From: Candidatus Brocadia sinica JPN1
GTDB lineage: Bacteria > Planctomycetota > Brocadiia > Brocadiales > Brocadiaceae
Reading direction: 5' to 3'
DNA: 64,000 nucleotides
Assembly (NCBI RefSeq): GCF_000949635.1
Contig: NZ_BAFN01000001.1
Location: forward strand, 186,001 to 250,000
Position numbers and translations under genes: made by a program. The stretch's first letter is position 1. Each line of letters starts with the position of its first letter. The notes beneath the pieces are model-generated. The model did no database searches. It was not told the origin of the DNA and saw nothing but the letters and a program-made list of their open reading frames with translations. Positions 78 to 60,532 of the stretch are shown in pieces.

Positions 78-116
78 AACGGTTTAAACGGTTTAAACCG
101 TTCAAACGGCTTAATC
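78..116. repeat. GTTTAAAC-type repeated words
   Basis: The gap between moxR and the DUF58 gene holds ACGGTTTAAACGG, TTTAAACCG and TTCAAACGG in close succession, forming overlapping palindromes. It is not followed by a clear T-run on the minus strand, so it is recorded as a repeat and not as a terminator. Confidence 0.4.
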
Positions 117-3756: not shown

Positions 3757-3904
3757 AACAGTTCGATAAAGGCAAACCCTGAGCGATCAGGGGACGCAAA
3801 GGAAAGGGTCTTTACCTGTATAAGGAAGTATAGGAATAAAGAAATAAAAACTTTATAGCGTATACGGAAATACGCATCACATAAGATAGCCTTACTGCCG
3901 AAGG
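3757..3904 (+). ncRNA. Cyclic di-GMP-I (GEMM) riboswitch aptamer
   Basis: The stretch holds the GEMM-I core: GGCAAACC at 3771-3778, a stem CCCTGA/TCAGGG capped by a GCGA (GNRA) tetraloop, then GGACGCAAAGG and AAAGGGTCTTTACC. It ends with TAGCCTTACTGCCGAAGG, the 3' closing strand of this riboswitch class. The 3' strand overlaps the left arm of a terminator at 3888-3898, so ligand binding and termination should exclude each other. On that geometry ligand binding would free transcription (ON switch, an inference). The controlled gene is the secreted beta-helix protein starting at 4009. Confidence 0.88.
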
Positions 3905-3947
3905 TGTTTGCTATAAAATATCTTTGCAGTAAGGCTTTTTTGTTTTT
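3888..3947 (+). terminator. Riboswitch expression-platform terminator
   Basis: AGCCTTACTGC at 3888-3898 pairs perfectly with GCAGTAAGGCT at 3926-3936 and is followed by a long T-run. The left arm is shared with the 3' end of the cyclic-di-GMP aptamer, which is the standard layout of a transcription-attenuating riboswitch. Confidence 0.88.
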
Positions 3948-4008: not shown

Positions 4009-7000
4009 ATGGATATTGTCAAACGGAGTGCAAGGTCGTTTTTGTTGAGTGCAGGGCTGCTCTTGCTTGCGGTCTGTCTGCTAACATTGTCCAGTAATGG
4101 GGTTTCTTATGCGCTGAACCACAGCAGTAATATTACCAGCAATGAGACGTGGTATGCCGCTGACAATCCCCATATCGTTACGACCACCATACATGTGTAT
4201 AGCGGAGCAACATTAACGATAGAGAAAGGGTGTGAGGTAAGGTTTGATAGTATGGCGGGTCTTTACATCGGGTATTTCAGCGCGGCTACTTTGAATGCGG
4301 TAGGGACAGAAGATGCTCCCATCACCTTCACTTCCAATACAGGTTCCCCTGCGCCTAACGACTGGCGGGGGATCGTTTTTTGGAACAGCACGGTTGATGG
4401 CTCAACGATTATGGATTATTGCACGGTAGAATATGGGGGATATGACAGTCACCATTCGAACATCGACTGCGACAGCGCCTCGCCTACCATCCAGAATTGT
4501 ACCATACGGTATTCGGATGAATATGGAATCTATTGTGATAATAACTCAGCGCCCACATTGACAAACAACACGTTAAGTAACAATGGCGTTTATCCTATAA
4601 GTTTGTACTGCGGCATACTCGACAGCAATATTTCAGGCAATACCGGGAGCGGTAATGGGACAGATGCCATTGAGGTGCGGGACGGAAGTATAACATCAAA
4701 CCGTACCTGGGTTCTGCAAGACCTTTACTTTAATGTAACGGGCATCATCCATGTATATAGTGGCGCAATATTGACGATAAATCCCGGGTCTCTGGTGAAA
4801 TTTAATAGCACGGCAGCCCTTTTCATCGGGTATTACAGCGCGGCTACTTTGATTGCCAACGGGACAAGCGGCATCCCTATTACTTTCACTTCAAATGAAT
4901 CAACCCCAGCGCCCGGTGATTGGCGGGGGATCGTTTTTTTCAACAGCACGGTTGACGGCTCAACGATTCTGGACTATTGCACGATAGAATATGGGGGATA
5001 TGAAGACACTTACAATTCCAACATCAACTGCGACAACGCCTCTCCAACCATACAAAATTGCACCATACGGCATTCGGATGGATATGGAATCTATTGTGAT
5101 AATAACTCAGCACCCACATTGACAAACAACACGTTAAGTAACAATGGCAGTTACCCCATAAGTTTGTATTGCGGTATATTGGATACCCATGTAACAGGCA
5201 ATACGGGGAGCGGTAATGGGACAGATGCCATTGAGGTGCGGGACGGAAGTATAACATCAAACCGTACCTGGGTTCCGCAAGACCTTTACTTTAATGTGAC
5301 TGGCGGAGTCATCCATGTATATAGCGATGGAATATTGACGATAAATCCTGGGTGTTTGGTGAAATTTAATAGTATTGGAGGACTTTCTATTGGGTATTAC
5401 AGCGCGGGTACTTTGATTGCCAACGGGACAAGCGGCAGTCCTATTACCTTTACCTCAAATGAATCGACCCCTGCGCCCGGCGACTGGCGGGGGATCGTTT
5501 TTTGGAACAGCACGGTTGATGGCTCAACGATTATGGACTATTGTGCGGTGGAATATGGGGGATATGGCAGTCACAACTCCAATATCAATTGCGACCAAGC
5601 CTCGCCTACCATACAAAATTGCACCGTACGGCATTCGGATGGATATGGGATATATTGTGATAATAATGCTGCTCCCACGTTGACAAACAATACGATAAAT
5701 GACAATGGCAGTTACCCCATAAGCGAGTATTGTAACATGCTGGACAGCAACGTAACAGGAAATACCGGAAGCGGCAATGGGACAGATGCCATTCAGGTGC
5801 GCAGCGGGAATATAACGTCAAACCATACCTGGGTGCCGCAGGACTTATATTTTAATGTAACTGGCGGAGGCACCCACGTATATAGTGATGCAATATTGAC
5901 GATAAATCCCGGGTGTCTGGTGAAATTTGATGCCGGAACAGGTATTTACTTCGGATATTACGGCGCGGCTGCTTTAATTGCCGACGGGACAAGCGGCAAT
6001 CCCATCACCTTCACCTCAAACGAATCAACCCCCTCGCCTGCAGACTGGGAAGGGATCGTGTTTTACAATAGCACAGATGATAGCGCAACAATTATGGACT
6101 ATTGCACGGTGGAATATGGTGGATATGGCAGTCACAATTCCAACATAAATTGCAACCAAGCCTCGCCCACTATCCAACATTGCAAAATAAGGAATTCTGA
6201 TGGACATGGAATTTATACAACCGGAAGCGGCGCCCTGCCATTAATATCTTGTTCAAGAATAACGAATAATGTCAATGGCGTCTATGCAATGAGTAATTCG
6301 ATTCCAACCATAGCGGATTGCAGCATCTCCGGCAATACGAGTTATGGCGTTTACAATAACTCCAGTTCTGTCACGCTTGACGCTGAAAACAACTGGTGGG
6401 GCAGCGCCGATGGACCCGGTGGTGTCGGGCCTGGTTCAGGCGATGCAGTCAGCGCTAATGTTGATTTTACCCCATGGTTAAGCTCATTTGATAGTTGTCT
6501 TGAATCTATTGTTTTGAGCCCTGCATCTGATACAAATTTTGTAGGCTCCCTGCATACCGTAACTGCGACGGTGGAAGATGAGGCTGGTGATCCAATTGAG
6601 GGTGTAGTGGTATTTTTTTACATTACCTCCGGCCCACACGCAGGACTAAATGGCAATGACACAACGGATTCAAATGGTCAGGCAACGTTTACCTACACGG
6701 GAACTACGGATGGCACCGACACGATCGAGGCAACTTTTGTTGATTTCCATGGTAGGACTATAACATCACATGCAGTCACAAAGACATGGGAATACCCTGC
6801 TACACCAATACCAACACCTTCGCCAACACCAGAGATAACACCAACACCGTCGCCATCACCTGAGCCGTCACCAACACCGGAGATAACGCCATCGCCGATA
6901 CCAACGCCAACAGGCACGCCAACTGCCATTACTCTGGCATACTTTCATGCTAAGGCTGGCAAAGATGGCAGCGTCACTCTAACGTGGGAGACAGTTACGG

Positions 7001-7251
7001 AGGTTGACAATGCCGGCTTTAACCTTTGCCGATCAAAAAGCAAGGACGGGCACTACACAAAGGTCAATAATACAACCATCCCTGCCCAGGGCAACGCCGT
7101 ATCCGGAGCCAGTTACAGCTATGTGGATGAACCAGGCATAGGCACTTTCTACTACAAGCTGGAGGATGTAGACTACTACGGGGTAAGCACCTTGCATGGG
7201 CCGGAAAAGGTGAGGGTGAAATCAGGGAGTAATGCGGTACGCAGACGTTAG
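4009..7251 (+). CDS. Secreted right-handed beta-helix repeat protein under c-di-GMP riboswitch control
   Basis: A 1080-residue exported protein. The ATG at 4009 is chosen over the TTG at 3982 because GGAGGGGAAGGAG lies just upstream of it. Residues 1-37 form a signal peptide. Four tandem repeats of 186-187 residues start near residues 42, 228, 415 and 602. Each has ITSNxTW, a long beta-helix segment with GYYSAATL and DYCTVEYGGY, and ends in GSGNGTDAI. A Big-1-like Ig domain follows (about 833-927), then a threonine/proline/serine linker (932-972) and a C-terminal fibronectin-like domain. The many N-x-S/T words come from the repeat code. The likely role is adhesion or matrix (inference); no enzymatic residues are recognised. 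Confidence 0.88.
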   Translation: MDIVKRSARSFLLSAGLLLLAVCLLTLSSNGVSYALNHSSNITSNETWYAADNPHIVTTTIHVYSGATLTIEKGCEVRFDSMAGLYIGYFSAATLNAVGTEDAPITFTSNTGSPAPNDWRGIVFWNSTVDGSTIMDYCTVEYGGYDSHHSNIDCDSASPTIQNCTIRYSDEYGIYCDNNSAPTLTNNTLSNNGVYPISLYCGILDSNISGNTGSGNGTDAIEVRDGSITSNRTWVLQDLYFNVTGIIHVYSGAILTINPGSLVKFNSTAALFIGYYSAATLIANGTSGIPITFTSNESTPAPGDWRGIVFFNSTVDGSTILDYCTIEYGGYEDTYNSNINCDNASPTIQNCTIRHSDGYGIYCDNNSAPTLTNNTLSNNGSYPISLYCGILDTHVTGNTGSGNGTDAIEVRDGSITSNRTWVPQDLYFNVTGGVIHVYSDGILTINPGCLVKFNSIGGLSIGYYSAGTLIANGTSGSPITFTSNESTPAPGDWRGIVFWNSTVDGSTIMDYCAVEYGGYGSHNSNINCDQASPTIQNCTVRHSDGYGIYCDNNAAPTLTNNTINDNGSYPISEYCNMLDSNVTGNTGSGNGTDAIQVRSGNITSNHTWVPQDLYFNVTGGGTHVYSDAILTINPGCLVKFDAGTGIYFGYYGAAALIADGTSGNPITFTSNESTPSPADWEGIVFYNSTDDSATIMDYCTVEYGGYGSHNSNINCNQASPTIQHCKIRNSDGHGIYTTGSGALPLISCSRITNNVNGVYAMSNSIPTIADCSISGNTSYGVYNNSSSVTLDAENNWWGSADGPGGVGPGSGDAVSANVDFTPWLSSFDSCLESIVLSPASDTNFVGSLHTVTATVEDEAGDPIEGVVVFFYITSGPHAGLNGNDTTDSNGQATFTYTGTTDGTDTIEATFVDFHGRTITSHAVTKTWEYPATPIPTPSPTPEITPTPSPSPEPSPTPEITPSPIPTPTGTPTAITLAYFHAKAGKDGSVTLTWETVTEVDNAGFNLCRSKSKDGHYTKVNNTTIPAQGNAVSGASYSYVDEPGIGTFYYKLEDVDYYGVSTLHGPEKVRVKSGSNAVRRR
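4132..6370 (+). repeat. Four intragenic tandem repeats of 558-561 bases
   Basis: Repeat units begin at 4132, 4690, 5251 and 5812, so spacing is 558, 561 and 561 bases. Units 2 and 3 share long stretches of identical DNA, for example around 4690-4740 and 5251-5300. Unit 4 is the most diverged. All spacings are multiples of three, so gain or loss of units would keep the frame. Confidence 0.9.
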
Positions 7252-59244: not shown

Positions 59245-60274
59245 TCATGGAGTATAGTGTCCACCGGTGCTGAGATTATTATTAGAGCCATCAGTCCTAG
59301 TACCCCCACACACAATCATCTGCGTGCCCGTCCACACCGCAGTGTGCCAGTATCGGGCAGTGGGGGCTGCCCCCGTAGGCATTGCAGACCAGGTGTTGAG
59401 CGCATAGGGTAGGGGGGGCTCCTGCTGCAATTTCAGGAAACGACAGGTAAATGCCTCACCTTCCACCTCAGGGGCAAACCGCTCACCCATCCGTACCCAC
59501 CACTCATCAAACCCTTTCTTTTTCCACTCAACAACGGCTACCTTTACTCGATCTGACCCTTTCCTCAATACCTCCATCACATAAAACCTCTCCCCATACT
59601 CCTGTAATGCGCTTACACGACGCAACGGTATATCCTGTTCCTCCCCTCCAAAAAGCCTCAGCCAACTTTCCAATCGCCTCCTGCCACTCATCCTCTGACA
59701 GTTCCAGGACGTCTCCACTCCTGTTCTCCGTTGCCTCTTCTCCTAGATTTGTCCCTTTCCTCCATTCCACCTCACGGCATTCCCCTCCCATCCCCTTCAT
59801 GTCCTCTATTCGTGTATTAAGCCTTTCCATTAACAAGGGTCTTGCCAGACACTCTGCTATCAACTGTAGATCATTACCTAGCGCCGACCATAGTTCACGT
59901 AATATCTCAGGGTTCCGGGTTGTCTCTGCCATTCGCTCCATTTCCGCCTGGAGCTGATACCCATCGACCGGCTGCTTCCAGATAACCTCCAGAGCCTTTG
60001 ACATCCTCAGCGTCTCCTCCACCTTCTTTCTCAGTTCATCTTCAAATATAACCTCGCTCAGTGGTGGTTTCGGGGAGGTATTTTCCTCAGGCCATATCGT
60101 ATGTTTCCAGTAGACCTCTTCTATTGACCTCTGGCATGTCACCCTCGCCTCAAAGCTCAATCCCAATGAGTCTGCCTTTACCCATCCGGACCATCCGGCT
60201 AAACATAAAACACTTAAAAGTCCTATTTTCCACCACCTGCATACTGCGACTTCCATCCATAAACGATTCATCAT
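59245..60274 (-). pseudogene. Secreted kelch-type protein, frameshifted and truncated, under c-di-GMP riboswitch
   Basis: The first frame (ATG 60274, AGAGGAG upstream) opens with a signal peptide (WWKIGLLSVLCLAGWSGWVKA) and a helical charged region of about 200 residues, reaching WQEAIGKLAEAF. Near 59650 a +1 shift at a T5/G4 run is needed to continue LFGGEEQDIPLRRVSALQEY. That frame ends in one kelch-like unit (NTWSAMPTGAAPTARYWHTA, then VWTGTQMIVCGG) and stops at 59245 after GGHYTP. Full kelch propellers have four to seven units, so the gene has lost its 3' part as well. A cyclic-di-GMP riboswitch precedes it. Confidence 0.82.
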
Positions 60275-60376: not shown

Positions 60377-60438
60377 TCAAAAAAAAGCCTTACTGCAAAA
60401 GACGATCTTTGGAAAAAAACGTCTTCGGCAGTAAGGCT
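60377..60438 (-). terminator. Riboswitch expression-platform terminator, second copy
   Basis: On the minus strand AGCCTTACTGC (60428-60438) pairs with GCAGTAAGGCT (60386-60396) and is followed by eight T residues. The stem is identical to that of the riboswitch at 3888. Confidence 0.88.
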
Positions 60439-60532
60439 ATCTTTCTATTTTCCTGCGTTTGCAGGAAAATAGTTTAAAGACCCTTTACTTTGCGCCCCCC
60501 TGATCACTCAGGGTTTACCTTTGTCGTAACAA
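60420..60532 (-). ncRNA. Cyclic di-GMP-I (GEMM) riboswitch aptamer, second copy
   Basis: Read on the minus strand: ACGACAAAGGTAAACCC, a CCCTGA/TCAGGG stem with GTGA (GNRA) loop, GGCGCAAAG, then AAAGGGTCTTTA. A long stem CTATTTTCCTGC/GCAGGAAAATAG follows, and finally TAGCCTTACTGCCGAAG. The core matches the copy at 3757-3904 almost base for base and has the same overlap with a terminator. The controlled gene is the broken kelch-type gene starting at 60274. Confidence 0.88.

Follow-up and report, generated by a model that had tools for sequence, protein, structure and literature searches.

Do the two c-di-GMP riboswitch-like elements in a 64-kb stretch of DNA (the window; C1:186001-250000 of the Brocadia genome studied here, G000) belong to a dispersed RNA regulon and, if so, what does that regulon control and how did it spread? 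The first-pass annotation of the window had described a second c-di-GMP riboswitch, on the opposite strand from the first and nearly identical to it, and had proposed a genome-wide set of secreted or surface genes under one RNA device spread by duplication. Rfam cmscan matched one element on each strand to RF01051 (E 1e-7 for copy 2) above the gathering cut-off of 35 bits (Table 1). Both are bona fide c-di-GMP-I (GEMM-I) riboswitches.

Table 1. Features of the two riboswitch loci, in window coordinates.
Feature	Positions	Strand	Details
GEMM-I aptamer, copy 1	3761..3902	+	RF01051, 54.5 bits
P2 hairpin, copy 1	3777..3792	+	GCGA tetraloop
P3-apex hairpin, copy 1	3815..3834	+	AAGGAA hexaloop 3822-3827; CsrA-type candidate site
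Second P3-apex hairpin, copy 1	3858..3875	+	ACGGAA hexaloop 3864-3869; CsrA-type candidate site
Intrinsic terminator, copy 1	3889..3941	+	dG -28.0; 5′ arm common to aptamer P3
Target of copy 1	4009..7251	+	secreted protein, 1080 aa; right-handed beta-helix and Big_1 domains
GEMM-I aptamer, copy 2	60424..60529	-	RF01051, 53.8 bits; G20, CAAAG (A47) and C92 present
P2 hairpin, copy 2	60498..60513	-	CCCTGA-GTGA-TCAGGG, GNRA tetraloop
P3 apex, copy 2	60445..60472	-	palindrome CTATTTTCCTGC..GCAGGAAAATAG, without CsrA-type loop
Intrinsic terminator, copy 2	60379..60437	-	dG -30.0; stem 60387-60437 plus T-run
Target ORF of copy 2	59528..60274	-	248 aa, signal peptide; N-terminal part of a Kelch-repeat secreted protein, frame broken
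Out-of-frame remainder of copy 2 target gene	59245..59718	-	single Kelch unit

The pair had been described as matching almost base for base, which is true of the stems but not overall. The 10-nt terminator arms are identical in both copies (GCCTTACTGC / GCAGTAAGGC), and in copy 2, too, the 3′ strand of P3 doubles as the 5′ arm of the terminator. Identity over the aptamer core and terminator, with the P3 apex excluded, is 78.8%, at the 28th percentile of 1081 paralogue pairs, and the two P3 apices are unrelated; the insert class of the copy 2 apex recurs in L065, L079 and several copies of the congener G009. The similarity of the window pair is ordinary among paralogues, and part of the likeness of terminators between copies follows from their 5′ arm being conserved aptamer sequence. 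Both window targets do begin with a signal peptide, as had been claimed, the second ORF being disrupted. Congener relatives of this second target are open frames of about 960-1070 aa, and a riboswitch also precedes its relative in G002 and a paralogue at L112. We conclude that the copy 2 target is a decayed gene, though its riboswitch looks intact; because one window target is a broken gene, some copies may be out of use.

The expectation of further copies was borne out by a covariance search, which returned 56 RF01051 matches in the 4.08-Mb genome, 55 of them above the cut-off; a few (L115, L091, L111) are degenerate. The main contig carries 55 copies, 29 on the + and 26 on the - strand, with a median of 44 kb from one to the next. 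Copies this dense would put at least two in about 22% of 64-kb windows, so that finding two in the window is unsurprising. Protein relatives place the genome in Ca. Brocadia. Ten congeners hold 19-45 copies (the count for G009 was raised from 44 to 45 on closer look), other genera of the family 1-28, and outer families 0-11; the rank of 55 applies to these relatives and the 14 control genomes searched. The GEMM-I riboswitch itself is already known, and what is unexpected is its copy number, together with a possible CsrA docking site in about 40% of copies. Some copies form close pairs, at G022:C1:3092636-3093066 (starts 342 bp apart) and G000 C1:792404/793157 (753 bp), and may represent tandem or nested control. 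Exact full-stem matching, with its hits checked by eye against the RF01051 list, found no orphan terminators; a 16-nt motif search added a single extra locus, L160 (G000 C1:3875428), a stray terminator 5′ arm without an aptamer and apparently a dead fragment.

The aptamers are well conserved. A GNRA loop caps P2 in 55/56 copies, and P2 pairs are canonical in 53-55 of 55, with compensatory changes. Among ligand residues, G20 and CAAAG (A47) are each present in 55 of the 56, and the ligand-pairing base C92 (Vc2 numbering) in 53/54 terminator-type copies. The family thus shares with Vc2-type c-di-GMP-I riboswitches (RF01051) the P2 GNRA loop, the conserved core and the equivalents of G20, A47 and C92, and differs in its mostly enlarged P3 apex, its interchangeable apex inserts and the presence of 55 copies in one genome. 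Because G20 is so widely kept, the likely ligand is c-di-GMP. An A at position 20 is the hallmark of GEMM-Ib aptamers, which sense cGAMP; it occurs here only in L106, ahead of an RHS-type protein, and both window copies have G. We consider it very unlikely that the family as a whole senses cGAMP, given the near-invariance of G20, an argument that is not absolute because Geobacter G20 aptamers can be promiscuous. L106 itself (G000 C1:1091520-1091639, +), with its RHS-type secreted protein downstream, is a predicted cGAMP sensor.

Aptamer identity, copy number, ligand residues, shared strand, terminators, target types and interspecies conservation were computed directly; ligand binding, switching direction and physiological role are predictions from sequence. 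Intrinsic terminators follow 54/56 aptamers, each with a 5′ arm that is the 3′ strand of P3, C92 included, and in 53 of these 54 C92 is the last base of that arm. Full-length minimum-free-energy folds paired the P3 3′ strand with the terminator arm in all 54, and folds of the aptamer alone recovered P3 in only 21/54, under a model without tertiary contacts or ligand. Sigma-70-like promoters were enriched upstream of copies relative to a control region; consensus scans of the window found no sigma-70-like site in the copy 1 leader and, in the copy 2 leader, a best match of 9/12 at 60652-60625 (-), at the shuffle rate.

These features suggest a transcriptional ON switch. RNA polymerase would transcribe the aptamer first (P2 with its GNRA loop, and P3). 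With c-di-GMP bound, the P3 3′ strand (GAYAGCCUUACUGCC) would be held in the aptamer, allowing read-through into the gene; without ligand it would pair with the downstream GCAGUAAGGC, forming the terminator and burying C92 as well. The same architecture is seen in the Geobacter metallireducens pilM GEMM riboswitch, an experimentally shown ON switch, in which terminator and aptamer are likewise mutually exclusive and the terminator sequesters the ligand-pairing C (PMC9262584). The pilM element binds cGAMP and is of the A20 type, whereas the Brocadia copies are G20 and predicted to bind c-di-GMP. The switches might instead be OFF switches or act through translation, as would suit L060 and L064, copies of canonical type without a terminator that lie 36-39 nt ahead of a start codon; in the other 54, however, terminator and P3 are mutually exclusive on one strand, as in pilM, and we regard the alternative as improbable for the family. 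A further comparison is with C. difficile, which has 12 class I and 4 class II c-di-GMP riboswitches (PMC11477304); these also form a multi-copy set over surface and motility genes, but its class I members are OFF switches, in contrast to the predicted ON switches of Brocadia, where class I copies are about 4.5 times as many. Together, the evidence gives us high confidence that both window elements belong to one expanded c-di-GMP-I family of transcriptional ON switches, acting mainly on secreted, matrix and surface genes.

About 54 such switches, with two canonical terminator-less copies, would operate across the genome. Most of the genes thus brought under c-di-GMP would encode secreted, matrix and cell-surface proteins, with some regulators and one GGDEF-EAL enzyme among the rest, and a role in aggregation or granule growth is plausible. 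With 16 full-length and one partial GGDEF matches in the genome, there are more than three switches per cyclase domain.

The proposal of a genome-wide set of secreted or surface genes captured the principal theme of the targets, though not its whole extent. Signal peptides were found in 28/46 first genes versus 30/114 neighbouring genes (p=5e-5), scored, like the motif counts below, with our own simple hydrophobicity and regular-expression rules rather than trained predictors, on gene starts assigned by a simple ORF rule. No signal peptide is present in about 40% of first targets, including the sigma-54 regulators, the GGDEF-EAL protein, radical SAM, UDP-sugar pyrophosphorylase, the phage-type sheath and PqqD, though several of these targets belong to export or matrix operons. 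Pfam matches of targets include LamG, RCC1, SBBP, Kelch, beta-helix, Big_1, DUF11, PKD and RHS proteins, cytochromes and amidases. Other targets are sigma-54 regulators, a GGDEF-EAL protein, radical SAM, UDPGP (UDP-sugar pyrophosphorylase), PqqD, a caspase-like protein, an ABC-2 exporter, an exosortase operon, polysaccharide-export operons and a phage-tail-like sheath cluster. Several copies (L071, L080, L092, L098, L104, L107) have no ORF of at least 100 aa within 700 nt. We conclude that secreted and surface genes are the main theme of the targets, not the whole. Individual loci are of separate interest. L115, the weakest riboswitch, precedes a response regulator-PAS-GAF-GGDEF-EAL protein. 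At L073 (G000 C1:1909802 onward) a phage-tail-sheath gene of a contractile tail-like cluster lies 3′ of a GEMM riboswitch, and L070, the copy just upstream, precedes a sigma-54 response regulator. L100 and L101 (G000 C1:485080 and 4008998) head a duplicated operon with an exosortase (EpsH) gene, and their riboswitches are near-identical.

How did so many copies arise? The flanks of copies are unrelated to one another. At 28 riboswitch loci the flanks could be aligned to G002 or G009, some of these alignments being short (30-60 nt) and possibly repeats. Identity of syntenic copies is 0.92 in G009 and 0.88 in G002, higher than the 0.80 of paralogues; the top-ranking copy was the syntenic one in 9/12 cases for G009 and 3/6 for G002. 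Because syntenic copies in different species are more alike than paralogues, the spread is old: sequence comparison indicates that the family had already dispersed when these species diverged, and that its copies have since evolved largely independently. A recent origin is clear for only a few copies (L061-L063, L088/L089 and L100/L101), and the canonical pair L060/L064 may be another case. Spread by duplication, as the first-pass annotation put it, is thus upheld in an old sense and not in a recent one. Recent genome-wide duplication or gene conversion was rejected in view of the greater likeness of orthologues and by the ranking of syntenic copies in G009.

An abundance of similar dispersed copies with unrelated flanks, and the recurrence elsewhere in the genome of short palindromes of the P3 apices (GTTTAAAC arrays), might also be expected of mobile repeats, small palindromic or MITE-like, that contain an aptamer by chance and form no regulatory set. 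The copies, however, sit in leaders on the same strand as the downstream genes and keep their ligand residues and terminators, syntenic copies stay alike from species to species even as flanks and apices diverge, and a single stray terminator fragment (L160) is all that was found outside the set. We rejected this explanation, to which we give hardly any weight, on the grounds of leader position, retained ligand residues and terminators, and cross-species synteny.

The regulatory family so defined shows one further peculiarity, at the P3 apex. The apex loop is unused for binding in known structures. In this genome it is mostly enlarged, to a median of about 46 nt, by interchangeable inserts: GTTTAAAC palindrome arrays, TTTTCCTGC palindromes (as in window copy 2) and hairpins with ANGGAN loops; in relatives, AGAGACGC palindromes also serve as apex inserts. 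The palindromic GTTTAAACN repeat, with a 9-bp period, forms dispersed arrays at window 82-107 (C1:186082-186107), C1:370727-371604, 374139-374389, 748210-748709 and 1328521-1328546, and a good many of its occurrences in the genome fall in GEMM P3 apices. The apex of L096 (G000 C1:3585354) holds a CAG trinucleotide microsatellite of about 8 units.

The ANGGAN hairpins resemble binding sites of CsrA, for which the SELEX consensus is RUACARGGAUGU (PMC7652899); we sought an ANGGAN hexaloop closed by C-G in a hairpin. The octamer CANGGANG occurs in 21/54 apices on the sense strand and in none on the antisense strand, at 9.1 per kb in apices versus 0.37 per kb in the same loci. Three of the genome's five exact RUACARGGAUGU matches lie in apices, as do 11/115 at up to one mismatch, and apices make up about 0.03% of sequence. 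An ANGGAN hexaloop on an uninterrupted stem of at least 4 bp was found in 10/54 copies, against a shuffle mean of 0.26; this strict count is below the octamer count because many stems hold a bulge or mismatch. Both copy 1 hexaloops fold as predicted, and no CsrA-type hairpin was found in window copy 2. In syntenic pairs that retain the hairpin, loop changes, read by eye, are confined to the two free positions, and stem covariation is not clearly above shuffles.

The distribution of csrA is consistent with this reading. The gene was present in all 11 Brocadia genomes searched, and CsrA of a congener has the expected L4 and R44. The motif occurs in 1/24 copies of the csrA-less G022 and G026 versus 41/128 in the csrA-bearing genomes examined (Fisher p=0.0024), a comparison of few lineages in which both csrA-less genomes represent one genus; csrA-bearing G021 has the motif in 0/9 copies. 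G041, of the same order, has eight CsrA-family matches, several partial or in adjacent pairs. The shared ancestry of the copies, the weak stem covariation and the lack of the motif in G021 count against the CsrA reading. We tentatively suggest, as a possibility to which we give somewhat less than even weight, that the family is a two-input device, in which the P3 apex of about 40% of copies is a predicted CsrA-binding hairpin. Bound CsrA might stabilise P3 and so promote read-through, or it might act on the leader as a repressor. There is precedent for CsrA on a riboswitch aptamer in the E. coli moaA leader, a Moco riboswitch with CsrA sites (reviewed in PMC7652899); the aptamer there is a different one, and in Brocadia the candidate hairpin recurs in the P3 apex of many copies. 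The many short leaders terminated at low c-di-GMP could also act jointly as a sponge for CsrA and thereby form a distributed counterpart of CsrB; EutX/Rli55 riboswitch RNAs provide a precedent for protein sequestration (PMC8383071).

Anammox bacteria, which grow in granules, are employed in wastewater treatment; to our knowledge no regulator of their matrix genes has been worked out. We found no description of riboswitches in anammox bacteria in the open-access literature. If the switches work as predicted, an organism without a pure culture would use RNA to place about 50 genes under the direct control of one signal, c-di-GMP, and the candidate adhesion and matrix genes of the family would form a defined set open to testing. 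Should CsrA bind as well, the family would be a rare instance, repeated in many leaders, of a single leader that brings together a second-messenger riboswitch and a global RNA-binding protein.
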